Assembly: GCA_910890315.1 (NCBI GenBank)
Contig: CAJVGD010000042.1
Coordinates: forward strand, 1,302,001-1,366,000
Source of the DNA: Serendipita indica DSM 11827
Lineage: Eukaryota > Basidiomycota > Agaricomycetes > Sebacinales > Serendipitaceae
DNA: 64,000 nt
Reading direction: 5' to 3'
Shown here in pieces: positions 3,525 through 56,108 of this stretch; position 1 is the stretch's first letter, and each line of letters starts with the position of its first letter. The notes under the pieces were generated by a model that searched no databases, was not told the origin of the DNA, and saw only the letters and a list, made by a program, of their open reading frames with translations. Made by a program: the position numbers and the translations under genes.

Positions 3525-3596
3525 GGGGCGGGGGCTCGGTGGTTGAGCAATCGACTGCAGATCGATAGGTCACCGGTTCGAACCCGGTTCGCCCCT
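3525..3596 (+). tRNA. tRNA-Cys (GCA), intronless
   Basis: A complete 72-nt cloverleaf can be folded by hand. The 7-bp acceptor stem closes with one G-T pair. The D arm is GCTC/GAGC, and the anticodon stem ATCGA/TCGAT carries the loop CTGCAGA, so the anticodon is GCA (Cys). The T arm is ACCGG-TTCGAAC-CCGGT. The discriminator base is T, as expected for tRNA-Cys. The B box GGTTCGAACCC is intact. A short T run two bases downstream, and a longer one soon after, could end RNA polymerase III transcription. It sits about 110 bp from the 3' end of the membrane-protein array. There is no intron and no sign of decay. Confidence 0.95.
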
Positions 3597-3704: not shown

Positions 3705-4202
3705 TCAACAGAGGTCCGACCCAGCAGAAGCTCGCCCTGATGGTGCCGACTTTGACAAGGCATCGAGATAAATAAGATGAGTTGAGAAGTCTCTGCCGCA
3801 CTTGAGGGGTTTGTCATTGAGAGAGGCTATTGAAGCGTCAGCCTCTTGCCTGGTGCCCGAGCGAATACGGACGCATGAATATTGTTTTATCGTCGTCTTC
3901 TCACGATGATTAACGACTGGTGCTACCTCATACAGGGGAGGTGTCTTGAAGGCTCGCCAATGATGTCTGGAAGAGGGCGGCATGGCGCTCCCTGTTCTTC
4001 TCAACTCTTCATCACTCTCGTACTCCCAGAAATGGCTCATAGCGCGATGGCCATTAGGGTTCCAGCCATTACGGGTAGCAGCGGCGAAGGCCAATCGTTC
4101 CCTGCGTCTCTGCCAGAGTTTATAAAACCAAAGTTGGATGACGACGAGGAAGAATATTGCCCCCGTAAAGTATGCAAAGGAGAGAAACCCATTGGTGGAC
4201 AT
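3705..4202 (-). CDS. Small single-pass membrane protein, array copy 1 (divergent)
   Basis: An intronless 165-aa frame. Met at 4202 precedes a hydrophobic segment (about residues 5-25) followed by a basic stop-transfer stretch, QRRRERLAF. The protein then has a charged middle, a Trp near residue 80, PPLYEVAPVV, and a segment with SCVRIRSG. That order (membrane helix, basic patch, W..PL motif, V-x-I-R strand) matches the other members of the array downstream, but this copy is the most divergent and lacks the intron before the PL motif. An upstream in-frame Met at 4220 would add six residues. The function is not recognised. Membership in the family is inferred from layout and position. Confidence 0.6.
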   Translation of the reverse strand: MSTNGFLSFAYFTGAIFFLVVIQLWFYKLWQRRRERLAFAAATRNGWNPNGHRAMSHFWEYESDEELRRTGSAMPPSSRHHWRAFKTPPLYEVAPVVNHREKTTIKQYSCVRIRSGTRQEADASIASLNDKPLKCGRDFSTHLIYLDALSKSAPSGRASAGSDLC

Positions 4203-4480
4203 TGCTTGAATCGTAATCAATGAGTATTCAGCCCGGGTGCAAGTAGCAGATTACCCACAACGATGATGATTACGATGAGAGTTTAATTTGAGAAACTAAT
4301 ATTCCAGGAACAAGAGGTAGAGACGAAGGAATGACGCTTTATAACTCGCGAATGGCCAAGCACAGGTCCACTTGGCACAACTTGGCCATCTGTGTGGTTC
4401 ACATTCAGGAAGGTCCTGTCAGGTCCTACGTCAGGGAGGTACCAGGGATATCCCGGAAAACCAGAGTCTGCCAATCACTC

Positions 4481-5007
4481 CTAGCGGAGAGTGAATTGCA
4501 TCGAACCGATACATAATTCCTCTGCGTGCGTATTCATTATGTAGCCCATTTCTTTCGTTGGTAAACGAATGACCGCGGCAAGCCACAATGGTCGCCCGTC
4601 CATTCCGACTTCGTTAGATTCGACACTTCTTGCGCCTTTGCGCTTCTTAGGCGCACTTTCTATGTCCACATCTCTTTCTAATCCAAGTGGCTGCACCAGC
4701 CATGAGACTTTGACCACTTCTAGTGATGCGAGCTTACCAGCCATTGCTTATCATGTACACTCGTACATGCTACCTTTCTTATCAAGCAATGATAGTAGCC
4801 GGGTTTACTTGGCTCAATCTGATCCTTTGCTCCGCGTTCCAGCCACCGTCTGAAGACGACCATCGATGCCGAGGTGACTCTTGTTTGCCGTTGAAGACAG
4901 CAACATATGAAGCACACGGCAGAGCATAACAGGAGAGCGCAGAACACGAGCACTATAACAAGTGCTATTGAGATTTTGAAGTCCCATATGTCGACATAGA
5001 CCTCCAT
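4481..5007 (-). CDS. Small single-pass membrane protein, array copy 2
   Basis: Two exons (5007-4738 and 4690-4481) join in phase 0 to give 159 aa. Residues about 10-35 form one membrane helix with a Cys cluster at its inner end (ICCCLQRQTR). The family motifs follow: FRRWLE, then QWL directly before the intron, PLGLE directly after it, AAVIRLPTKEM, and EELCIGSM near the C-terminus. An in-frame Met at 5070 would lengthen the N-terminus; 5007 was chosen because the siblings also start close to the helix. No signal-peptide cleavage site or enzyme motif is seen. The role is unknown. Confidence 0.75.
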
Positions 5008-5832
5008 GCGCGCTTCTTCGTCGTGAAACTCGGTAGCCCAAGCCCTTAGGATGGAAACGATAAAAATCACGACGTAGAATGGAGCGCAGATGGACCGACT
5101 TTTGCCGAAGAGCCAACACTAGGCGTACGGGGTGAGCAAGAACAAGGGTAGAGCAGAGTGGAATATTATATATATATCTGTACCAAGGGCAAGGCTTCTC
5201 GACGAATATTACCTCGGGATGTAGTCGGCTATAGCGGCTATGAGCCACATCACCAAAAATAAGTTTTCATCAAGCGCCCGAGGTGGGCCGACGGAACGTA
5301 GTTATCATGTCTGTGGGAGTTGACCCTGGGCAAACTCGTTCCTTCCACCTGACTGCCTTATGAATATAAGGCGGATGTATGGTATCCATATGTTGACTCT
5401 CCTCGAATGTATTGATGCCTTGCTCATGCAAGAAGCTCACATGGTCCATGTTTGCACTCGGGTCTTTTGGTTTGGACCCCGGCATTTGTATAGCTCCTCT
5501 TGAAGTATATCAGGGATTATGCGCAACTTCTTACTTACTATACTGTTGTTATAGGGATACCGGATCGGAAGCAGCGTCGAAAGTGCCAGACGCATGCATG
5601 TATAATGATTCATTCGGTATTATCCGCATTATGACAAGTCCTGCGAGTGTCTCTCCGCGCCAGGCCAGCATATGTTAAGAGACCTAGAACTGGTAGCCTC
5701 GAGGTTCTCCATTAGGCGAAAGGATATAGTGGTGGAGGTCAATATGCGGTCATTCGCGTTTTAGATAAATCGATTGCAAAGTTCAAGATGTCGCACTCAT
5801 CCGGCTTCTCCTCACAAACAACATGCATATCA
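5008..5832. other. Gap in the membrane-protein array, no gene assigned
   Basis: These 825 bases separate copies 2 and 3 of the array. Only short open frames occur. None has a membrane segment, and none shows the W..PL or IRMP motifs on the minus strand. Two plus-strand fragments, IAPLEVYQ near 5500 and FGIIRIM near 5620, faintly recall the PL and IRMP motifs, but there is no membrane exon in front of them. The stretch may hold an eroded copy or just promoter sequence. Confidence 0.4.
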
Positions 5833-6380
5833 TCATGTACAGTCCATCGTACCGAGTACCAATTCACCACTATGCATGTTGGGATGATGATCTGATGCGC
5901 CCGTCGTTGGCATACGAATGATGGTCGACATGCAGAGCCTGGCACGGACCTCCTGTTTAGGCCTCCCGTCAAGCCTTTTACGTCCTATTTTCCAACGCTT
6001 CGTGGCCAGCTCTTCAGCATTGGTTGGTTGAAATTCTTCCAAGGCGATGGGCTACATGATCCGAAGCTTCAGTATCTTCTCTTATTCGCACTTTGTCAGC
6101 GTACCGTCCACTCTTTATCAAAACCGACTCCATCTGTCACCTCATCCGCAATTATATCAAAATATTCAGGTTTATCTGGCTCGAGCTCCATCCTCGCGTG
6201 GTTTTCGAGCCAGGTACGGAGGTGGGGGAGGGAATGCGCCGCTGAGTAAAGTCTCGACTTTCGCTGTAGAAAGAAACACAAGACCCCAATGGTGAATAAT
6301 AGGATGAGAAGAAGAACGAGCGAGATGACGATAAACTTTGGAGACGCGACGCCCGAGTCGCCAAAGGTAAAGACGGACAT
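5833..6380 (-). CDS. Small single-pass membrane protein, array copy 3
   Basis: Two exons (6380-6105 and 6051-5833) join in phase 0 and encode 164 aa. A strong membrane helix spans about residues 14-37 and is followed by basic FLQRKSR. LRTWLENHA replaces the RHWL motif. EWT ends exon 1, and PIALEEFQP starts exon 2, the same junction as in the sibling genes. The C-terminal part carries STIIRMPTTG and GELVLGTM. The spacing and intron position show common descent with copies 2, 4 and 5. The function is unknown; a type III or signal-anchored topology with a cytoplasmic tail is an inference from the basic residues after the helix. Confidence 0.78.
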
Positions 6381-6679
6381 GTTCCGCGGCGTTGGTCCCT
6401 TTGGCAGACGAAAAAAGTGGGTAAAGGGGTGGCCGCTGTAAATATGAGGCTCATACCCAAAGGTGATTTGTTATATGAGGTAGCATATGAGGGCGGGGAT
6501 TACGCATCACATATATATACTGGTCGTTTGTAGCGGGCATAAAGTGCACCCCCGAAATACGTTCAATGGATGTATATGAGATTACAGGGTTCCCGAAGGG
6601 TCTGTCCACTGAACCCTGCAAATGATCTAGTGTGACGTAAAGGATAATAACGCAACACAGATGGACAAACGGAAAAGTA

Positions 6680-7270
6680 TTAGGAGCTGAATCTCATCGT
6701 CCCCACAAAGAGCCCATCATCATGCGCAGAAGGAACATAGTTTTTTGTTTCGTCCATCGGCATGCGAATCACAGCCGATAGAATGAATCGTTTCTCCTCT
6801 ATGCCTCGTGTTCCACGCTCGTGCCCACGTCTCCCCCATTTCCACTGCCTCGCACGCTTTGGCTGCGTATTCGATACGTCCCCTTCTACAGGTACTTCAT
6901 CCTCTTCGAGGGCAAGTGGCTGCCAATATATTGTTCACCATAATCTAATTAGGTGTGACGAAGGACGTACCATCCAAGATTTGGATATACCCATTCCTTT
7001 GGGTACGCCATGGCTACAGTCACGCTCCGTCCCAGAAGATGCGTGAAAAGTAAGGGCAACACAGTAGTACACAACTGGTGGTGTATGAAGCCAATCTTGA
7101 AGCTCACGTGCAAGCCAGTGTCGGAACATCGGGTAGGCTGTCCGGCCATAGCGCCGCCCAAAGAACCAGAAAACCGAGATAATAACCAGAATGATGCATG
7201 AACCAGCAACTATGAAGGCAAGCCCGATCCCACTTGTGACTGGCAGCAGTCTCCCTTCCTCAGACGACAT
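6680..7270 (-). CDS. Small single-pass membrane protein, array copy 4
   Basis: Two exons (7270-6971 and 6919-6680) join in phase 0 and give 179 aa. The membrane helix covers about residues 16-38 and is followed by GRRYGRTAYPMFRHWLA. Exon 1 ends with SWM and exon 2 starts PLALEEDE. A basic stretch of Lys/Arg/Trp comes next, then SAVIRMPMDE and HDDGLFVGTM near the end. It is very close to copy 5 along the whole length, including RHWLA-ELQDW and PSAHDDGLFVGTM, so the two are probably the youngest duplicates in the array. No catalytic motif is visible. Confidence 0.82.
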
Positions 7271-7537
7271 CTAGGCGGGGAGCGTTGGGAAGAGAGAACG
7301 ACGAGGAAAGTGGGCGATACTAGACGCGTAAGGCATGGATATTATCCTTTACGGCAATCGCATGCCTATCGACGTTGGACGGAGAAATGTTCGGCGCTAA
7401 CGTATATATCGGCCTCTACAACCAATCATAAGGTGTTGACGGACATACCGATATTGATATCGATAAGATTGGGAGGACTTACAGCACCACGGTGAATTGG
7501 ACATTAGCGTACAAACGTAGATCAGACAAGAGTTATA

Positions 7538-8113
7538 TCAACAGCTGAACCCCATCGTCCCAACAAACAAACCATCGTCATGAGCAGAAGGGACATAATC
7601 CTTCATCTCATTGGATGGCATGCGAATCACGGCTGATATAATGTATCGTTTCTCTTCAGTCGTTCGCGTTCCGTGCTCGTACGTCCGTCTACGCCATCTC
7701 CACGGTGCTTTACGGTTTGGCTGCGCGTTTGACATATCCTCCGCCTCGACGGTCGCCTCATCTTCTTCGAGCGCGAGCGGCTACCAATACAGCGTTGATC
7801 ACAGAGTCGATATATATGAAGAGATACGTACCAGCCAAGTCCTGGGAGTCCCCATTCCTTTCGACATACCATGCCTCTGGCCCCCTTTCGTCCAAGAAGA
7901 TGTAGGAGTCTTAAGGGCAACGCAGTGGTACAATATCGGTGGCGAATGAAACCAATCTTGGAGCTCAAGGGCAAGCCAGTGTCGAAAAGCTGAATACGGC
8001 GTGCTACCATAGCGCCGTGCGAGGAGCAAGCAGACGTAGAGCCCCGAAATGAAACCCGCGAGTGTACCAATGATAATGAATGAAACACTAAGCCCAGTTC
8101 CCTCCGGCGGCAT
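7538..8113 (-). CDS. Small single-pass membrane protein, array copy 5
   Basis: Two exons (8113-7832 and 7780-7538) encode 174 aa. The helix lies at about residues 9-31, followed by LARRYGSTPYSAFRHWLA. Exon 1 ends with TWL and exon 2 begins PLALEEDEA. The tail contains SAVIRMPSNE and ends with HDDGLFVGTMGF. It matches copy 4 residue for residue in several blocks, and the introns of the two copies share position and phase. The stop at 7538 is 268 bp upstream of the start of copy 4. The promoter regions of both copies share the phrase ACCGATATTGATATC (near 7447 and 8329), which hints that the duplicated unit included regulatory DNA. Confidence 0.82.
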
Positions 8114-8380
8114 CCTGCGCCTCTCTTGACCGGCGCGACGTCTCAGTGTGGAGGACAGTGAGGAGAGAGAGAACGAATGTGTCCAGTTTTGTAATCCAAA
8201 TAGATATATATTGGGGGCATGACAACGACAACTCGACAGGGGAAATCTTCGGCCCTAACGTACATATGTGATATGAAGCTGCTCGATCGAGCCTATCAGC
8301 ACCCAATCACAAGACAGAAGCGGACATACCGATATTGATATCAATAAGATTACCAATCCTACATATATAACGGATTTGGG

Positions 8381-9052
8381 CTAACTATTCGGAATGGCGT
8401 TGCCCGTGATCGCCGCTGGAGTCGAACTTGGATTTTGCTTCGTGTTCTTGATTGTAGATGTCGTCCAAGCGATTGGGCCTGTGATGACTACGTGGGCAGT
8501 GCCAATAGTGAGACTGGTGTCTTCTCGCCAATCCTCCTCTTTCGCCGACGTTCGCTGTTTACTGTGGTAAAAATGACGTGGATGGGCTTCAGAAGGCATG
8601 GAAATGAAGACTGTCATCATATATGGTTCGTCGTCTTGGTCTTCTTCGTCCGTACTCGGATCCTTAGACGATTTCGGTTTTGCTTCCTCGCCACTTTCAG
8701 CTTGCATGGCTAGAGGCATGATGTTTCCCATCACGACACTTCTCTGTTTCATGGAAATCAACCTCTCGTCGCTTGGGAATACGGCTATACTACGCACCAA
8801 CTTTTCGTCACCAGAGGATATCCATGTCTCGAGAAAAGGCGGTTTGACCTTGTTCTTGTCTTCTAGATCCTCGTCGGGGATGCGGAATGGACTACGCCAC
8901 AGCGGACCACGGGCATTGGTCTGACCGACGAGGGTGCCGCGTCGATGGGCAATGAGGGTCCAGCAAAGGAGCGAACCAACGCCGAGGATAGGAGTGAGGA
9001 TGAAGATGATGGAAGGGAATACGGTGCGTGCAGAGTCAAAGTTGCCTGACAT
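8381..9052 (-). CDS. Larger intronless member of the membrane-protein array
   Basis: A single 223-aa frame with a helix at about residues 12-34 followed by AHRRG. The middle region is longer than in its siblings and rich in Lys, Asp and Glu (DEEDQDDEP). The family landmarks remain: MPLAMQ in place of PLALEE, VFISMPSEA in place of VIRMPSNE, and LTIGTAHVV in place of FVGTM. The intron found in copies 2-5 and 7 is absent, which could mean intron loss. The C-terminus extends past the usual end with a Thr/Asn/Ser-rich tail. Family membership is well supported by motif order; the function is unknown. Confidence 0.7.
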   Translation of the reverse strand: MSGNFDSARTVFPSIIFILTPILGVGSLLCWTLIAHRRGTLVGQTNARGPLWRSPFRIPDEDLEDKNKVKPPFLETWISSGDEKLVRSIAVFPSDERLISMKQRSVVMGNIMPLAMQAESGEEAKPKSSKDPSTDEEDQDDEPYMMTVFISMPSEAHPRHFYHSKQRTSAKEEDWREDTSLTIGTAHVVITGPIAWTTSTIKNTKQNPSSTPAAITGNAIPNS

Positions 9053-9566
9053 TATTGCTGGGGTGTGTGTCCTACAGAGATGGAGGACGAGGAGGTGTTG
9101 AGATGGTAATAACTGGTTGGACTAGAATGTCCGGTGAAATCGGACTTGGCGTAAGAGATGCACTTGGGGCTGAAGCAGTGAGTTGACTAAACGTGGCGAT
9201 CGATGCACCCAAATCTGATGAGTGAAGAGACCCGTTGCAAACCCGAAATACGCAGTACCAAGATGCCCGCAGCACCAGACGTCTTTATACGACCTGGAAT
9301 AGCCCCCGAGACCGAGAGGCAAGAATGTGTTGTAAAGAGGCGGCGCACAGGAAGCGCGCGAGGCCAGGCGTATGCGTGCCGGTTGCCGACAAAATGTGGG
9401 GTGAAAATAATGGACCTCCTGGTCGACTAGCAGAGTCTGGATAACTCGTAGATGGTGCACAAGATGAGCCCCGAGAGCGGAGCCTAGACGGGGCAGAGGC
9501 CAAGTTGTAGCTCATAGGCTGGTTACGCCACGCGGGGGACATATGTCATCCACTTAGGCCAAGCTA

Positions 9567-10045
9567 TTATAATACACAGTAGTCGTCTATGCATACAGAG
9601 CTCGTTCCTAATTCTATTTCATCTTCTGCAAATGTCCTAGAATCCACAGTGGATGGCATTCGCACAAAGAGAGCCACTCGATCGGTCGAAAGCGACATTG
9701 GCTGTAATGACTTAGAGTATGCAATCATATAGTTCACATACTTACCTGGATATCTGACCATTCGTACTTTTCCCACCCTCGAATGTATCCACCCGCCGTG
9801 AGCAGCGACTCGTGGATGGGTGGGACATCTTTCAACTTGCTTCTTGTTGCTGTTTCATCAATTTCCAATAGTCCAGCAGCGCGAAGAGCCTCGAGGGCAA
9901 TCTGTCGCCGTCTAATTGCCTGGGCTCTGATCACCCAGGAGAGAAGGATACCGGCTGCGAGGAGAATGCATGCACTTAGGACAAATAAGATGGATGGGAC
10001 GAGTTTGAGACCCGGAAGTTGTCCGTCTGAGCTCGTCCAGCTCAT
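9567..10045 (-). CDS. Small single-pass membrane protein, array copy 7
   Basis: Two exons (10045-9746 and 9701-9567) encode 144 aa. The Met at 10045 lies 15 residues before a helix at about residues 16-39, followed by RAQAIRRRQ. Exon 1 ends with EWSDIQ and exon 2 begins PMSLSTDR, the same phase-0 junction as in its siblings. ALFVRMPSTV and ELGTSSV follow. The C-terminal part is shortened: the long basic linker after the PL motif is missing. An in-frame Met at 10102 would add 19 residues. This is the outermost and probably oldest recognisable copy on this side. Confidence 0.72.
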
Positions 10046-12016: not shown

Positions 12017-15000
12017 ATGCCGTACGACTCTTCGACGATTCCCCTGCACCTTCCGATCCTCATGGAAGAGCTGAAAAGAAACCATTATACCCTCATCAAC
12101 TCACCAGGACCCGCACACGGCCCCGGCATCAATACCCCCTCCACCCTCGATGATCCGAGCACCCACCCACATACGTACAACTTACATAATAATACTACTT
12201 CAAACGTTACTGTATCGCCGCCTCCCCTTCCTCTACAAGGCTACGCTCCCAACAACAGTGGCTTCGATCGGAATGGTCCGCCCCCTCCTACGAGAGTAGC
12301 CCCGATCCCCATTGGTCACTCTATGGGTGATGACCATCTCATTCGCTCGGAGACCTTTGGTCCCTGGAGCAGTATCCGTCCAAGGCTACGGGCGATGCAT
12401 GCATGCAGCCAATAGGAGGCGAGCATCAAGAGTCAGGAGGGTCGCTTAGTACAATCGACCCCGTTCTTAGGAGGGAACTCCTCGTTGAACGTAGGCAGGC
12501 TCTTGCTCAGGCTCACAAAAAGCTGGCTGCCCATCACCACGATAGTCGTTGGCTTGTTCAAGGAGCTGACTCTTACATACATCACCACCAGCTCACGTCC
12601 AATCGAGCAGCAGAAGCTGATTGCATTCTCAATTTATATAAAGGAGCCTGCGACCAACCCCCATCGTCATCCTTTTCCCCTGGACCCTCTAGGCCCCCAC
12701 TGGTTAGTCATCCAAGTGTTCTAGTATGCGTTTCACAGACCGCTAATCGCTCTCCGATCCTCTTTCAGATGGAGTCTACTCTGTGGTACACCCCAATCTC
12801 GGCCTTGCCCGCAGACGCGGCTACCATGGGCAATCTCCCTGGTATCGATACTCGGACCCATCATTCTCGCTCTGCTTCAGATCCTCATATCACTTCGATG
12901 AACATGGCCCGCTCCCGAGATTACCTCGCTCAGAGAGCTTCGTTTGCGGCACCCGCCGTGAGGGATCCCATTTCGCAACATGAATGCGCACACCATGGTA
13001 CCTCTTCCCCGTCTCAACCAGCTCAAACGATAGTCCAAACCTCCACCGACGTACACCAATACCAACAACAGCAGGCCCTCCTCCTGACCCAAATGGTCCC
13101 CTTGGATCATAGAGGCACAGCAGAGGGTTGGGCGGGATCGTTCGGAATCGGAATGACTGGTACTCGCGATTTGAGAGCATGTCCGGTGTCTCAGCGTTCC
13201 AATTATCAAAGCGACGGTCAAGCTGCCCTTCAGTCCAGCGCCATTCGGCGCCTTAACGGTCTCAGGGAAAGTGCGCAGCTAGTCCATGGTCATGAAACAC
13301 AATATCACGTGCATAATTGGTATTCCAAGTTGGGTATGCAGAGCTCCTCTTCCTTACCCGTCGGGCAAGAGGAGTATGGACAGGAAACCCCGCAGCAGTC
13401 AGCGGGTGTGGCATACTCTTCTGACTCACCACCAGCACGTCAAGCGCATCAAGTAATCACAGAATGCACTCATGAGCTGACAAATGGTATTTGGGACCGG
13501 GGCGCGCACGCCGACGCGTCGGTTCCGCCATCTTCCAATCCCACGATGCAGAATTACGGATACTCCTTGCAGTCTGGTGTCCCGGACGACACAATGACGC
13601 TGCAGAGTCTGACGCCGTACACCAACTCGCCTGCGGACAACTTGGCCAGAGTCGAGGCGTCCTACGCGCTGCCCAAGACGCATTCGCCACATCCACTCTC
13701 CACTCACTCGTCGCCCTACTCTGTCCCTCACTCGCCCTTTACCCATTCAGGACAGTCCCCCTTTGCTCAACACGCTTGCACCTCTTCCCCGCCCATTATG
13801 ACTCCTCCAATGGGTGGAATCTCTCAAGCACGACCCATTGGTACGAAATACCCACATAAATGCGTTACCAACTCGCATCATGGATCGTTGACCACATCAC
13901 CCATGATTAGACCACCTTCTAGCTCACTTAGTGTTTCGCCCGCCATCCAGTCTGCACCTCTCTTTAGCAACCATCACTATTATAGCGCGCAGTTTCCAAC
14001 ACCTTCTGCCACGTTTCCAACACCCGACATTCCCAATTATTCACCGCCGTCGACCGCTGCGTCTTTCCCCCATGCTCGGTTCAGCGAGCAGTTCCCTCAA
14101 GTGCAAGCGACAGGATTCAATGTCGACTTTAATCCAACTAGTGCGCTTTCTCCAGGTGATGAGATGTCCGGTTGGCCGCGCGCCCTCTTTAGCGATATCC
14201 CGTCCCTCTCTGATCCATCACACGGTACACCCGGGGGACATTCGTCACCCGAGACTAGTCAGCCTCATGCGACTCCCATACCAACTCCTTCCTCTTTGAG
14301 TGGCAATGAGGAAGATTCAGACGGGGCTGAGGATGTGGAAGCTCTGCCTGATGATGTATCCGAGCAGGCAGCAGAGGTCGAGTCGGTACCAGCAAGCGAT
14401 ACACTAGTGTCCCTCCCGTCCATTCCCCGCGCGACGGTAGACCAAGTGACGGCGTTTATCGAGCGTGCATTCCCCATTGGGACCCCAAAATGGGCTAGGC
14501 GTCGTCGTGCGCTTCGGATGGTGCTATTCTCGGATTGGAAGGCACGCGACATCAAGGAGCCTAGTCGCAAGTTGCTCTTGGAGTTTGTCGACACTCTCAA
14601 CTCGCCCACAGGCTCTTCTTCTACTTCGTCCGGTGCTGGGACGTCTTCGCAGGCCAGAAGGCGCCGATCAAGAGTATCCCCCACCTCGGCGTCCGCCGTA
14701 GCGAAGAATAAGCAGAGGTGGAGATGCGGTTTCTATTTGAATCGAACGGACGAAGCCGGGAAGCAGATTCGATGTCCTTGTGGATCAGTCCGAACTGTGC
14801 AGGCGTTGGAACATGTTCGCCGACATATCAAGCTCGAGCCGTTTGTATGTGAAGGGGAGCCCTGGTACGTTGTTTTTGTTTCTGGTGAATTCGCTTATCT
14901 AATCCACTATCCGAACAGTCCCGAATCGTCGACCGGGTGTGGCGCTCGGTACTCGTCGCGCGACCCGCTCAGAAAGCATCGCAGTGGCAAGGTTACGTGC

Positions 15001-15125
15001 GATACGTGGTGTGTATTGACCAGTGGTCTGGACCAGGAACTCATAAACTCTGTTTTCGATATAGTCTTCGTGGGGTCCTTCCTGGAAACATGAAACGCCA
15101 TCTGGAGAATAACTGCCGAGAATAA
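12017..15125 (+). CDS. Three-finger zinc protein, long paralog (putative transcription factor)
   Basis: About 947 aa from five or six exons. The N-terminal 700 residues are disordered, rich in Ser, Pro, His and Gln. A helical block follows (TVDQVTAFIERAFPIG to KLLLEFVDTL), then three zinc-finger-like units: WRCGFY...CPC...HVRRH, a second with GCGARYSSRDPLRKHR, and a third ending GNMKRHLENNC. The last two introns (14865-14918 and 15009-15064) each split a cysteine codon as TG|T, and the exon between them is exactly 90 nt. An early frame change needs an intron near 12,327-12,415; gtgatg to aatag restores the frame but was not confirmed. A 66-nt stretch at 12,703-12,768 looks like an intron but is also open in frame. 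The role as a nuclear DNA-binding regulator is inferred from composition and fingers. Confidence 0.75.
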
Positions 15126-18764: not shown

Positions 18765-21598
18765 ATGTCCGATATGTCCTACTCAGATAGTGACGGCGAT
18801 AGTTCTTGGTCCGCTGTTGGACTCTCGGACCCAAAGAATGGGCAATACCGAGACCGACGAGCGCTGCTGGATACAGTCAACCAATTGCATAGCTGTGGGT
18901 GCGTATAAAGACCGACTAGGGAAACATGCGCTAATGCATCCCAGTCTGAATAAAAGACTCGACTTGCCTCAAATCGCCGTCGTTGGCTCCCAGTCCGTGG
19001 GCAAGAGCTCCCTGATTGAGGCAATGTCAGGGGTGAGTGAGACGTGTAATTTCTCTCTCATAGTCAAGCTGAACCTGTATAGATCACACTCCCTCGCTCA
19101 TCTGGCACCTGTACACGGTGAGCCCTGAACGAATCGTGGAGCCGTACGGGAATATTGCTAACGCTTTATAAGATGTCCCATTGAATGTCGCCTCTCCAAA
19201 GTTGACACACCCTGGAAATGCGAAGTATTTGTTCGCTTCGAGGATGCGCGTGGGGAGATACGGTTCGGCGAGCCCATCAGCGACCACACACTTGTGGAAG
19301 ACCGCATCCGCCGTGCACAAATTGCAGTACTCAATCCTTCGTCTGATCCTCTCAGCTTTCTCGAGTCCACTTCGCTTGAAAATAATGAGCTGTCGTTCTC
19401 GGACAACATTGTCTCAGTCCGTATTTCCGGCGCTGAGGTCGATGATCTCTCCTTTGTGGATCTTCCAGGTAGGTACAGTACCATTTTATACGACTAAACT
19501 AATAAAATTGGTAGGGATTATTGCAGCGGTTCGTGCTGGTGGTAATGAATCCGATGTCGACCAGGTGAAAAACTTGGTTCGCAAGGTCATTGCGCGCGAC
19601 TCTTGTCTCATTCTACTCGTTGTATCCTGTGACAGTGCGTGGTAACATTGACTGTGAGACATTATTGACCTCGTACAGCCGACTTGGAGAACCAGGGGGC
19701 TCGCAGTCTCGCAAAGCAAGTCGACCCTAATGGCAGGCGTACTATCCGTGTGTATTTTCTCACCAAGGTGCTATAATAAGCCCTGATTGGCATCACAGCG
19801 GTGCTCACCAAACCGGATCGTATTGAGCGTGGTACACATGCCGGCTGGATGAAGCTCCTAGAAAATCGTGAAGAGCGCTTCCGGCACCCCTGGCACTGCG
19901 TCAAACAGCCCAACCAAATGCAATTAGAAAGCGGCATTAGCCATCGCGAAGCGCGTAAAAGCGAAAACGACTTCTTCGCCAACACTGAACCATGGTCAAC
20001 TCTCGACGTCGAGATTCGCTCCAGACTTGGGACGTCTGCGCTGACAGAAGCCCTGGGTACAATTCTCTTTGATCTAATCTGCAAGACGTGAGTTCTACCT
20101 TGTCTTTGTCCTGATAATCATAACTCTTCTAGGCTACCCGGAATCATCCACGAGGTCGAAAAAAGACTCAGGGAAACGAAGGATGCGCTAAGCAAGCTCC
20201 CGCAGAAGATTGAAGGAAACCCAGTTTCCATAGTCATGCAACTTCTCGAAGACTTCAAGAAAGACGTGTCGAGTCTGATAGATGGCAATGCAGATGCAGG
20301 TGCTAATGGACTCATCCAGTCGTTCCGGTGCGCAAAGGACAGGTTTCGCCAAGAAATATTTGATCAAGCCCCCAACTTTAAACCATATGGACGCTCCAAA
20401 ACAGCCACAAGAGTGGTGCACGACCACGTAGATGCCTCAATTGAGAATGCAGAGGATACTGAGCCACTAGAACCGACGAGACGCAAGGATCAAGGTCGTG
20501 TATTCTACTTGGAGGACGTCAGGAAGATGGCAAACGAGTGCGTTTAGAGACTTTTACTCTGTGGAGGTGTATTGACACACAGTTCTAAGAGCAATGACAC
20601 GCGAGCTGCCGCAAAATTTTCCGTATGCGATCAAAATCTTCTACATCAAACAGTCGACCTCAGAGTGGAAAACTCCGATGGAAAAGCTCTTCAAAAGTGC
20701 GGAAACCATGTTCGAAGACAAAGTCAGAGGTCTCGTCCACCACCACTTTTCTCGATTCAGCGCAGGGTCGTTTAACACTGAAATGATGTACGTGTTCCCA
20801 TCCCTTTGTGTTTACTTTCTTTCTCAATAGCCCACAAACAAGGCGTCTTGCACGTGCCCACCTCCGAGCATGCAGCGAGCGGACGCACCAGCGGATCCAC
20901 GAAATGCTCAAGCTCGAACAAGAGGAGCCCTTCACCGTCAATGAGCACTACTTGAGTGACTACAAGGTCAAGTACAAGGCACGCTACGAACGAATGTGCA
21001 ACCCGGAGCCGATTAGCAGCTCGATTCCTGCATCCCATCCGACGCCTCCTGCCACTGTGGTCGCAAGTGATTGGGCCAGCAGAAGCAGCGCAACGTCGAG
21101 AATGCATCTTACGCAGGCTATAACGTCGTTGACGGCGGCCGGGCTTCCTACGTTGACCGAAGACGAACTGGTAAAGCGGGTCAGAGCTTCCCGGTCTCTA
21201 CACCAGAAGGGTTGGTGGAAATCATGGCAGAAGTTCGAGCGTACTACCAAGGTCTGTGCTTGACATTGGCTCTCAATCGCTGCATCTAATGCCGATTTTC
21301 CGTAGTTGCATTCAAGCGCTTTGTCGATTATATCTCCATGATCATTGATTACGAGCTCCTCAAGCAGTTCTCCCGCACTCTTCATGTCGTTATCACGACT
21401 GGTATAAAGATTGGTGAGGATGGGTTCAAGGAGAGATGTATCTCGTTGCTTGTCGATGATCCCACCATTGTGCGGAAACGTGATGGGCTGATGCAAGATT
21501 TGGAAGTCTTTAGCACGGCATATATCAATTTGCAAAGCGTTGTGACCACTTCGACAATGGATTATGAGGACGAGGAGATGGAGGGCATGTCCAGCTGA
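18765..21598 (+). CDS. Dynamin-like GTPase
   Basis: Eleven exons encode about 780 aa: a GTPase domain, stalk and C-terminal GTPase effector domain. The P-loop is GSQSVGKSS, switch 1 is LPRSSGTCTRCP, the G3 motif is FVDLPG, and G4 is LTKPD. The stalk contains FTVNEHYLSDYKVKYK, and the effector domain contains IMAEVRAYYQVAFKRFVDY. No PH or proline-rich domain is present, so this is a dynamin-related protein of the Vps1/Mx kind that self-assembles and remodels membranes; which organelle it serves is not shown. Most exon junctions keep frame. The exception is exon 20831-21251, where the stalk and the effector part are in different frames around 21,171-21,205. That is either a base error, a real frameshift or an unrecognised splice event. 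Confidence 0.88.
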
Positions 21599-43346: not shown

Positions 43347-46300
43347 CTACTCTTCATCAGACATTTGGATCTCTTCCTCGTTGCCTTCTGCAGCCTTGTC
43401 ACCGTCTTGCATTGACTTGTCTGCGTTTGACTCTGCAGGTTTCACAACCGTGGTCGTGGCACGGACGAAAGCGGGGCCTTTGGTAGCTTGCTTCTCCGCT
43501 GCAGCCATAGGATCAACAGGTGCAGAGGGCTCGATACTTTTTGCATCCTTCTGAGTTCCGAGGGTATGGGCGGCAAGGAAGGATGCTTCCGTGTTGTACT
43601 GGCTCTGTACACTGCGCTTGATCCTCAGGTACTCCTTAAACGTGTCTTCCGAGCCCGTCTCCACCTCGAATTGATTCCACTCGGACCAGAATTCGGGGAA
43701 CAACCGCGGGTCGCAAAATTGCGAAGCGTGGGCATAAATCGCACGTGCTCTGTCAATCTCGCCGAGCTTGCGTTCCATTGCGGCAAATCTCAGGCACATT
43801 TGAGCCGTTTGTCGGTCTGGGAGTACCTCGAGTGCCTTCTCGAAGATGGATCGGGTCGCTGGCAAGCCGAAATTCTCCGTGACTTTGGCGATGTAGATAG
43901 TAAACATCTAGAGACGGTCAGGGAGGCTCCATATCGATGGGACTGCTCCACATACCTCAAACTTGTCCTCGTCGGACACCACCGAAGCAGCTCTCTCATA
44001 AATGGCCATGGCCCGCTTCGCCAATCCATAGTCCTCCTCCAATTTCGCATACATGAGAAAGAGGGGTTTGCAGTACTTTTGAGGGCACTTTTCGAGCGCT
44101 TGCTCGAACAAGTCTCGTGTTCGCTCGAGCTTGGAACCACCCTGTTTTCCAATTTGGTCAGCAGAAGTCAACGAAACACAGAGACGACATACGTAGCGCT
44201 TGACAAACTTTGACAAGTAAATGTTCCAAATTTCGAATGAGATGGGAAAGTTAAACAATTCGACACCCCGTTCATACACTTTGAAGCTTTCCTCGTAATA
44301 CTGATTGTCCTCCAGGAAGGTAGCGTAGTTGACAATTATCTGCAAGGCGGAGATTAGAATGATCCTGCCAGTGGTCGTGTCGCGCTTTACGCACTTGAGC
44401 ATTTGCTATTCGTAACTCGAGAATCTTGTCGTAGACTTTCTTTGTACTTTCAACAGATCCAATAGACTCCTCTAGGTCGACGTAAAAAGACCATAGTTTG
44501 AGCGACTTGAAGAGTCGAGCCTGAACGGGGAGACTCTATAGAGGAATCAAATCGTGGTCGGAGGGACTATAACGTCTCTTACCTGATCATGGTAGTTAAT
44601 CTTTGGGTCTTTTGGCACATACGCAGCGCGTTGCATAAGTCGAATGGCTTCATCGAAGTTTCTATAGTGGCATTGAGAAGGTAGTCCCAGGCCAAGATGC
44701 GCACCTACTCATGCCGTATCTCCATCTCTGCCCATTCGCACCAAACCTCGGCAAGTTCCTCGACCGTTCTAAAGTTGACCTTGGTTGCCTTTTCCAGGAG
44801 CTTTCTTGCGCTGTCGAGGCTGGGCTCAGACTGGCCCGTCGTCCCACCTTCTTCATAAAACTTGGCGAAATTAATGTAAAGGCGGTGGAAATTGGCGCTG
44901 GCCTTTTTCGGCGCAATGGTTTCCAGCGCCCTTGTATACGTCTCAGCGACTTTTTCATCATTGTCTCCCCAAAGCGCTATTCGCTTCTCCCACTCCTGAA
45001 CGTCGTGTGGATTTCTCCGAATCAGAACGTCGTTCACAAGGAACGGCCTTCGATCGTTTAGTTCCTCAAACGTTTGCATCTGGAGGTCCAGGTCCGCCTC
45101 GATCTCCGCCGCCGACTCTTCGTCTTCTGGTGATTCCAATGCGGCCATCAACGCAGTTATGAGCGACTCGAAAAATTCGGCATAGGCATCAAAGATTTGG
45201 GTAAAGTCCCGAACAGTGAGCACAGAGGTGATCCCTTCCTCGAAGGTTTGTTTGGCCTAGCCAAAAGTGAGCACGAAAAGTGATTGGCTTTTGTGAAGGT
45301 ATTACCTTTTCAAACTCTCCCCGCTTCGACCAGTATGTGGCCATGCCGGCCCACAGTCGACCGGCTTGGTCTTTGTAAACGTCGAGACCGTCGCGCCGCA
45401 CGACCTTCTCTACATTAATCTTGCGAGGACTCGAAGGGTCCACATCTTCATCATACGTCTCCTCTTCTTCCACAGGTTGTGGAGGCGCAGCAAACCTCAC
45501 CAACGATCCAGTCCCATTCTTTGTAGCTGGCTTATTTTGGGTGCTCGCACCGGGCTCGGCAGCGAGTTGCTGTTGCGCTTCTTCAATATCCATTCCGACC
45601 TCTTCTGGATACTGTTGTACCACATCCAGCCATTCTCCGAGGAGCTGGTATGGGCTCTTTCCTTCGGGACTGGTGTATTTGCCTTTGGCAGCCTTTCTCG
45701 CAAGACCCAACAGCAACTTTGCAGCCTCGAGTGGCCTCGGTTGTGGGTTATCCGGAGAAAGCAGGATAGCCGTATACCGTTCGGTGATTGAGGGGTCGAT
45801 GGCGAGATAGCGTCGGTAGACGCGTGCCGTTGTGCTTCCACCCTTTGCTTCAGACCATAAGAGATATACAGTCCAGACTCTTGAGTGAAGAGACGGGGGG
45901 AGCGTCCGAAGTGCACGGTCAAAGGTTCGGCGTGCATGAGTATGGGAGATCTGGGCTGGACATTGAGGATGCTGAAAGAGGGTAAAGTACATTAACCAGA
46001 GTCGTGGCATCTTCGTATAATAGTCAGCAAGCTTGTTTCAACGCGCTCTAGAGTGAGCTCACCGTCGGAAGCCAAGTCAAGGCCCGTTCAAACGTCGCAA
46101 TGAGAGACTTCCACTCCTCCCAGCCAACTACACCGTCAAGACCCGCTTCCCACGTCTCAGCATATGCCAATTCATCCTCCAACGCCTCTCTCATCTCAGC
46201 CAGCTTTTTGCGGCCTCCTGCTCGCTTTGGTTTGACGCCTTTTCCGAGCACATAGAGGCATCTCATTTGTAAATACGCCTTCCATAGCTTGAACGAGGTT

Positions 46301-51431: not shown

Positions 51432-53171
<1,740 letters not shown>

Positions 53172-54425: not shown

Positions 54426-54764
54426 TCACCCCTCAAGTATATCGCATTCTATTGTTTCTTCAGCATCCTCTTCCTCTCCATCTTCTTCGTTGGAGTCCTT
54501 TTGAGACGGCGTCCCGTCCTTGTTTTTCTCCTTGTCACCTACGGCGTCTCTCCATGGCGTCAAAAGTTGAGATCCCGTGACCTCCTTTGCTGATTGAATG
54601 GCTGCGAGGACATTCTTGTAGTCGACTGTCTTTCCGTCCCCGATGGGAAAAGTGACTGTCCCCTTGGCTGGGATCGGTTCATTCGACTGTTCTAGTACCG
54701 GTGGATTGACCCCATCTGGTACTGAGAGCGAATAAGAAATTGTGATTTTACGGTCGGATGCCAT
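54426..54764 (-). CDS. Possible EKC/KEOPS subunit GON7
   Basis: A single 112-aa frame with the order beta-rich N-terminus (KITISYSLSVPDG), a Pro/Glu spacer, a helical block (VDYKNVLAAIQSAKE, LLTPWRDAVGDKEKNK) and a long acidic tail (EEDGEEEDAEETIE). This size and layout resemble fungal GON7, a small intrinsically disordered subunit of the KEOPS complex that makes t6A on tRNA. The resemblance is from memory and is not strong at residue level, so the call is tentative. The Met at 54764 was chosen over one at 54986 because the longer frame overlaps the PTP-like gene's start on the other strand. It converges on uL2m with 13 bp between stops. Confidence 0.5.
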   Translation of the reverse strand: MASDRKITISYSLSVPDGVNPPVLEQSNEPIPAKGTVTFPIGDGKTVDYKNVLAAIQSAKEVTGSQLLTPWRDAVGDKEKNKDGTPSQKDSNEEDGEEEDAEETIECDILEG

Positions 54765-54892
54765 CAGGTCCAAAGTGGGTTTCGCCACTTGGTCTCCGAC
54801 CCATCCAACAAACGTACTCAACCCAGTCAGTTCCAGTGCTTGCAAAGATTTTTCGCCGAGATTGGTGGCGTATGCACTTCTCCAGGCAGACG
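54765..54892. promoter_or_regulatory. Divergent promoter, GON7-like / PTP-like
   Basis: 128 bp separate the start codons of two genes on opposite strands. Either both promoters share it or one transcript starts inside the other gene. Confidence 0.45.
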
Positions 54893-56108
54893 ATGTCCTC
54901 GGCCGCGTCTGTACTAGCGCCCCCGGGGCAGATACCAAGCTGGCTGCCCAGTCCATTACAAGAGTCATATATACAGAAAGTGGCAAAGGAAATATCGTAC
55001 CGCGAAGCCATCAGGGTGGAATGCCACGATCCACGATCTCCAGAATCTGCCGCGTCTCCAACCTGTGCGGCAGCGTATTGCACATCCGTGGCCAAAACTG
55101 CGACAAATTTACGATTTAATCGCTACACGGACGTCGTTCCATACGATAGAACACGCGTTGTTCTTTCGGACGGAGCGTACCTCAACGCCAGCTGGGTACG
55201 CGAGTTCGCCGGTGGACGCTGGACAGTGGCAACACAGGCGCCCTTGGATAGAACAGTCCACGCATTCCTTTCCATGTTTCTACTCCCAGTCGCCCCTCCT
55301 CAAGATCATACACAGCCGACTCCATCCAGCATACCAGCCTCGAATCGTCTCCGGACCATTGTACAGCTTACGCCGAACGTCGAGGGTAATATCAACAAAG
55401 CCTTTCAATACTTTCCTAGGACGGTTGGAGAGACCCTAACGTGGTCACCAGCCAAAGGAGTGTCCTCGCCGCCGATCAAGGTCAAGCTCGTCCAGAGTGT
55501 ATCACCTGAGGAAGAAGGAGAACAGCCCTCATGGATTCATTCGGTCTTGGCCTTGTCTTACGAAGGTCACCATGAGCCACCGCACCTTGTCAGACACCTT
55601 CATTTCCTGGTTCGTTTCATATTAGTCCCCGATTTGGCGTACTCACTCAGCTTAGGGATGGCCTGATCACGGTACCCCGCGGGACGTTCGATCTCTCCTT
55701 CAGTTTATGAAATTCGTCGATGCTTGCAACGCAGACACGACTCACGCAGACGCAGCGCAAAATCCAGACCCGCCGATAGTCATAGGATGTAGCGCTGGAG
55801 TGGGCCGTACGGGAACATATATCGCTCTCAGATCGCTCTTTCACGCGCACGGCTTGAACCAACCAAATCTTTCTCCACCAAGCCAGTCAGAAACCCCAAC
55901 AGCAAACTGGACTGGGGCAGTTCTTTCACCGTCACCTCTGGGCCCCCTAAGTCCTGCATTGCAACAAGACAAAATTGCACTCGAGGTGGATGCCCTCCGA
56001 GAGCAACGGCCAATGATGGTACAGAGCGTAGATCAATTGAGATTCCTCTATACTACGTTTATCGCCGCGTTGGAACTGGAGGGTCGAAACAGAATGAGCG
56101 ATTCATAG
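54893..56108 (+). CDS. Protein tyrosine phosphatase-like, active-site His replaced
   Basis: Two exons (54893-55609 and 55656-56108) encode 389 aa of the classical PTP fold. NRYTDVVPYDRTRVVL, GAYLNASWV, WTVATQAPLDRTVHAFLSM, RTIVQLTPNVEG, the WPDHG loop and a C-terminal Q-loop area (MVQSVDQLRFLY) are all present. The P-loop reads IGCSAGVGRTGT: the catalytic Cys and Arg are kept, but the nearly invariant His before the Cys is Gly (codon GGA). In studied PTPs that His lowers the Cys pKa, so activity may be weak or the substrate unusual. The frame is intact with a clean stop, so it does not look like a pseudogene. A Pro/Ser insertion follows the P-loop helix. Confidence 0.88.

Follow-up and report, generated by a model that had tools for sequence, protein, structure and literature searches.

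A tandem array of six related, putative single-pass membrane proteins and a neighbour of similar layout in Serendipita indica

In the genome of the basidiomycete Serendipita indica DSM 11827, seven open reading frames (ORFs) occupy positions 3705 to 10045, on the minus strand, of the 64-kilobase (kb) stretch analysed here (contig CAJVGD010000042.1 of assembly GCA_910890315.1, positions 1,302,001 to 1,366,000; hereafter the window). An earlier note, made from the sequence of the same DNA, had described them as seven related membrane microproteins; its coordinates and strand are borne out, and each ORF has both an ATG start and a stop codon. Our analysis indicates that the array is composed of genes for six related single-pass membrane proteins (copies 2–7), together with a neighbour of similar layout (copy 1). 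All gene models given below, including every exon join, are sequence-based predictions.

The core of the family is formed by copies 2–5. Pairwise local alignments, each compared with 500 shuffles, gave z-scores of 19–90 for all six pairs among these copies. Leave-one-out profiles gave scores of 52.9, 60.1, 137.4, and 138.8 bits for copies 2, 3, 4, and 5, respectively, none of which was reached by any of the 2000 full shuffles, 2000 tail-only shuffles, or 453 control ORFs used for each copy. They were also recovered, each when left out, by a block test that looks for three ordered conserved blocks after the helix and takes its letters from copies 2–5 only (0/500 shuffles, 0/453 controls). Judged from their predicted sequences, copies 2–5 are certainly paralogues. 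In the same block test the score of copy 6 was reached by 1/3000 shuffles, 0/3000 tail-only shuffles, and 0/453 controls, and that of copy 7 by none of either shuffle set (0/3000 each) or of the 453 controls, although all block-test figures are somewhat favourable because the block borders were picked after the alignment had been seen. The predicted sequences thus make a good case that copies 6 and 7 are distant members, which for copy 7 extends to the position of its intron. Neighbouring copies (2–3, 4–5, and 6–7) are mutual best matches, as expected from local duplication, which supports the proposal that the array arose by tandem duplication.

Common descent of all seven, which had been regarded as a firm inference, therefore holds for six. 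Membership of copy 1 is rejected by both kinds of test: against the profile of copies 2–5 it scored −1.2 bits (reached by 529/2000 shuffles, 1532/2000 tail-only shuffles, and 137/453 controls), a value that did not change with a profile of all six others, and its block-test score was reached by 2752/3000 shuffles, 2236/3000 tail-only shuffles, and 281/453 controls. The sole hint in its favour, out of six comparisons, comes from its local alignment with copy 5 (z 3.4, p 0.008); the alignment with copy 4 gave z 2.0 (p 0.054). A relic copy at 5140–5830, in the gap separating copies 2 and 3, was considered on the prompt of a tblastn scrap at 5327–5283 (copy 5, 15 amino acids, E 2.1), a spot also touched by copy 4 (7 amino acids at 5303–5283, E 2.9). 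Frameshift-tolerant alignment does not support it, the scores being reached by 1/60 shuffles for copy 4, 4/60 for copy 5, 10/60 for copy 3, and 18–38 of 60 for copies 6, 7, 2, and 1. Elsewhere in the window, residues 30–95 of copy 7 match 21051–21239 on the plus strand by tblastn (E 0.005, 25% over 68 amino acids, with composition correction off), a match that is probably compositional.

In five of the seven genes (copies 2, 3, 4, 5, and 7) the codons for P-[LIM]-x-L immediately follow a predicted phase-0 GT-AG intron, as had been noted. These introns measure 47, 53, 51, 51, and 44 nucleotides (nt), respectively, start with GTAAG or GTACG, and end with AG. The remark that two copies lack the intron stands for copy 6, where the codons ATG and CCT are contiguous at the family site and the frame reads through, as would be seen after precise loss or before gain of the intron; the state of copy 1 is not assignable, because it cannot be aligned at that site. 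The ORF of copy 6 holds five in-frame GT-AG candidate introns elsewhere, and one of usual size, a 54-nt in-frame GTGCGT...CAG at 8797–8744, may represent a displaced intron.

The motifs said to be shared by all copies are present with more variation, and in fewer copies, than had been described. The strand and end motifs, given as V-[IR]-R-M-P and L-x-[IV]-G-T, read VIRLP and LCIGS in copy 2, IIRMP and LVLGT in copy 3, VIRMP and LFVGT in copies 4 and 5, FISMP and LTIGT in copy 6, and FVRMP and IELGT in copy 7, and by the block test do not extend to copy 1. A tryptophan does precede the intron in copies 2–5 and 7, but not with the W-x-x spacing: in copies 2–5 a single residue separates it from the intron (W-x, followed by P), and in copy 7 it occupies the fifth position ahead of the intron. 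The [RW]xWL motif is found in copies 2–5 only. A first regular expression for the family failed to catch copy 7; a loosened version includes it and matches 0/453 controls, and is after the fact in having been relaxed for that purpose.

The synonymous divergence (dS) of the copies indicates that the array is old rather than the product of recent growth. Copies 4 and 5, which share 56% identity over 172 codons, have a dS of 1.20, a nonsynonymous divergence (dN) of 0.29, and a dN/dS of 0.24; copies 2 and 3 have a dS of 3.27, near saturation, and the other four pairs among copies 2–5 are saturated. Recent array growth thus finds no support in dS, nor is there any indication that copies 4 and 5 have recently undergone conversion or crossing-over with each other, and the suggested link between the array and fast adaptation is unsupported by these values. 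Differences between copies 4 and 5 number 53, 35, and 80 at codon positions 1, 2, and 3, and at least these two copies are, on average, under purifying selection. They are most alike in the conserved blocks (9/10 in W-PLALEED and 28/36 from VIRMP to the end) and least alike in the N-terminus plus helix (9/33).

A near-N-terminal membrane helix followed by a basic patch, as described earlier, is predicted for all seven proteins by hydropathy window and charge count. A single clear hydrophobic segment begins at residue 6–21 of each; lysine plus arginine residues number 0–1 in the stretch of up to 15 residues that precedes it and 2–5 in the 15 that follow. According to the positive-inside rule, the basic flank marks the cytosolic side, and the asymmetry therefore points to an N-terminus outside and a tail in the cytosol. 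We infer that the proteins are most likely anchored with the N-terminus outside and the C-terminus in the cytosol, their small tail forming strands, and we tentatively offer the following account, which we consider quite possible, if somewhat short of probable. In the old tandem family of copies 2–7, each protein would be held by an N-terminal anchor that is not cleaved off; its N-terminus would lie outside or in the lumen, and its tail, of ~100–190 residues, in the cytosol. The tail would consist of three short strand-like blocks, P-[LIM]-x-[LM], [VIF]-x-[RS]-[ML]-P (where x is hydrophobic in most copies), and [LI]-x-x-G-[ST], joined by a poorly conserved linker. It could be a docking module, tethered to the membrane, to which a cytosolic partner binds, a conjecture to which we commit for the sake of testing and not as a result, and the copies may have specialised through divergence of helix and linker.

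An alternative that we consider unlikely, though deserving of serious attention, takes the N-terminal segment for a signal peptide, or the anchor for a reversed one, so that the tail lies outside and belongs to a surface or secreted recognition protein. Proteins that are small, diverged, and repeated in tandem are often found at the surface, and the poor conservation of the helix region between copies 4 and 5 would suit such a role. However, in all seven proteins the basic residues come after the hydrophobic segment and not before it, and the dN/dS of copies 4 and 5 gives no overall sign of fast change. The account of cytosolic docking modules is itself weighed down by several observations. 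The topology is a prediction from hydropathy and charge counts. Codon-usage scores are weak, with the gene's own frame the best of six in 4/7 (copies 1, 3, 6, and 7) and not the top one in copies 2, 4, and 5; the case for copies 2–5 as real genes accordingly rests on conservation. For the exon-2 part of copy 5, modelled with five other rows, AlphaFold returned a mean predicted local distance difference test score (pLDDT) of 52.4, a predicted template modelling score (pTM) of 0.18, and a single short C-terminal hairpin, with no strand at the VIRMP block. Run on copy 6 with the exon-2 parts of copies 2–5 and 7, it gave a pLDDT of 50.2, a pTM of 0.28, a helix at 8–40, and strands at 74–80, 83–89, 144–151, and 183–190; that the last two fall on conserved blocks speaks for the account. 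Both models are of low confidence and offer hints only.

Two further adverse points concern the distant copies. Copies 6 and 7 match each other at full length (z 7.4, p 0.004), but the match is carried by the helix region, with the tail alone at z 1.2 (p 0.154). Against the profile of copies 2–5, copy 7 scores near chance (1.2 bits; 73/2000 shuffles, 195/2000 tail-only shuffles, 20/453 controls), and copy 6 is marginal (4.2 bits; 7/2000, 12/2000, 3/453). Together with pairwise matches to copies 2–5 that are mostly at shuffle level (across the array, 11 of the 21 pairs have p 0.18 or more), these scores favour the view that the family comprises copies 2–5 only and that the genes for small membrane proteins beside it, copies 1, 6, and 7, are unrelated to it and share the layout by chance. 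We regard this view as decidedly unlikely in light of the ordered-block test, the local alignment of copies 2 and 6 (z 4.9), and the copy-7 intron, which lies at the exact point and phase of the family intron. When each distant copy is added to the profile used on the other, copy 7 scores 9.7 bits (0/2000, 93/2000 tail-only, 0/453) and copy 6 scores 8.8 bits (0/2000, 7/2000 tail-only, 0/453).

Copies 4 and 5 are also linked by their upstream regions, which share a 31-nt element that is better conserved than the coding sequence of the two genes. The numbers of identical positions are 143/240 in the promoter, 179/279 in exon 1, 31/51 in the intron, and 168/237 in exon 2. A stretch of 30/31 identity within the promoter was reached in 1/10000 column permutations, and the longest identical run of the copy 4/5 unit, 22 nt, lies inside the element, outside coding sequence. 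Its inverted arms are CGATAT/ATATCG, which pair perfectly in the element of copy 4, and CGG-N5-CCG. Within the 64-kb window there is no further occurrence of the element at up to 3 mismatches, nor of a second conserved block of 21 nt, and the other copies therefore lack either in recognisable form. No family-wide promoter words were found in the upstream regions above control counts: words common to at least three regions numbered 4 for 8 nt, 1 for 9 nt, and 0 for 10 nt, versus control means of 6.24, 2.36, and 1.89. A bolder version of the account, which we think doubtful, is that these are uncatalogued fungal membrane-anchored docking modules encoded by an old array of paralogue pairs (2–3, 4–5, and 6–7), partly co-regulated via the 31-nt element; the element would then have stayed nearly unchanged while the adjoining genes diverged to a dS above 1.

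The statement that no known family is recognisable is upheld for Pfam, NCBIfam, and PDB sequences, and the word uncatalogued is used here for absence from these libraries, not from fungi. None of the seven proteins matched Pfam-A at the curated cut-off, the best match being TMEM52 for copy 2 (E 0.031; 14.7 bits versus a cut-off of 26.4), and none of six exon-2 parts matched Pfam even at E up to 10. NCBIfam gave a lone weak match of one member to a histidine kinase model (E 0.029) and the PDB sequences a lone weak match to a designed enzyme (E 0.23), neither of which is credible. No relative was found in viral contigs (queried with copy 6 and the exon-2 parts of copies 4 and 5) or in prokaryote genomes (queried with copy 6 only), and none was expected. 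The literature matches listed contain nothing on this gene family. An unconfirmed lead is offered by hypothetical proteins of mushroom-forming fungi, presumably small with one N-terminal helix and an ‘AMPSP ... FGVAEV’-like C-terminal ending, whose C-terminal strands would resemble those of copy 6 (FISMP..LTIGTAHV) and copy 7 (FVRMP..IELGTSSV); among the literature matches listed for four such letter strings, the titles point to chance letter matches. SNB1 (Snowball), of the DUF6533 family of Agaricomycetes, is described as a protein with seven predicted helices, from a membrane protein family of mushroom-forming fungi that likewise has no known mechanism (PMC10949477). The array proteins differ in having one hydrophobic segment, and DUF6533 is absent from the Pfam matches of all seven.

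The window has 51% GC, contains no N, and holds 138 ORFs of at least 110 amino acids. A Pfam scan of 20 ORFs outside the array identified the protein-coding neighbours listed in Table 1, and these point to a eukaryote; the short introns, of about 50 nt, suggest a fungus and probably a basidiomycete. A 919-amino-acid open frame at 12334–15090 on the plus strand has no Pfam match at E up to 0.01. It is very improbable that the array encodes mitochondrial inner-membrane proteins, each combining an N-terminal helix with a folded tail, that are clients of the BCS1-type AAA chaperone whose gene is nearby. The BCS1-like gene (about 341–1116) is on the same strand, and the Rieske protein, the best-known BCS1 client, resembles the array proteins in having one N-terminal helix and a C-terminal domain. 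Against this, about 2.6 kb that includes a tRNA gene and other sequence separates the BCS1-like exons from the array, the 0–1 basic residues ahead of the helix are unlike a typical presequence, and neighbourhood in a fungal genome is weak evidence.

Table 1. Positions of array genes, upstream elements, and neighbouring features in the window
Feature	Positions	Strand	Details
Copy 1	3705–4202	−	165 amino acids; single ORF; N-terminal hydrophobic segment; family membership not supported
Copy 2	4481–5007	−	159 amino acids; predicted exons 4738–5007, 4481–4690 (stop included); intron 4691–4737
Copy 3	5833–6380	−	164 amino acids; predicted exons 6105–6380, 5833–6051; intron 6052–6104
Copy 4	6680–7270	−	179 amino acids; predicted exons 6971–7270, 6680–6919; intron 6920–6970
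Copy 5	7538–8113	−	174 amino acids; predicted exons 7832–8113, 7538–7780; intron 7781–7831
Copy 6	8381–9052	−	223 amino acids; single ORF; family-site intron absent; distant member
Copy 7	9567–10045	−	144 amino acids; predicted exons 9746–10045, 9567–9701; intron 9702–9745; distant member
31-nt element, upstream of copy 4	7440–7470	−
31-nt element, upstream of copy 5	8321–8351	−	30/31 identical to copy-4 element
21-nt second block, upstream of copy 4	7384–7404	−
21-nt second block, upstream of copy 5	8242–8262	−	19/21 identical to copy-4 block
BCS1-like AAA exons with BCS1 lid domain	341–739, 751–1116	−	Pfam above cut-off
tRNA-Cys gene	3525–3596	+	Just beyond copy 1 stop, at array edge
SYF1 HAT repeats	43350–43907, 45192–46037		Pfam above cut-off
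TIP49/RuvB-like exon	51435–51989		Pfam above cut-off
Ribosomal L2 ORF	53115–54590		Pfam above cut-off
Tyrosine phosphatase exon	54746–55663		Pfam above cut-off

The family is new by the libraries searched and ordinary in kind, old arrays of this sort being common. If confirmed, it would extend the set of fungal membrane proteins that have no model by one unnamed family, with a clean anatomy (a helix, three short blocks, and one intron position) suited to a profile search across fungi, and the 31-nt element would help to show when copies 4 and 5 are in use; otherwise it is an ordinary old tandem gene family.

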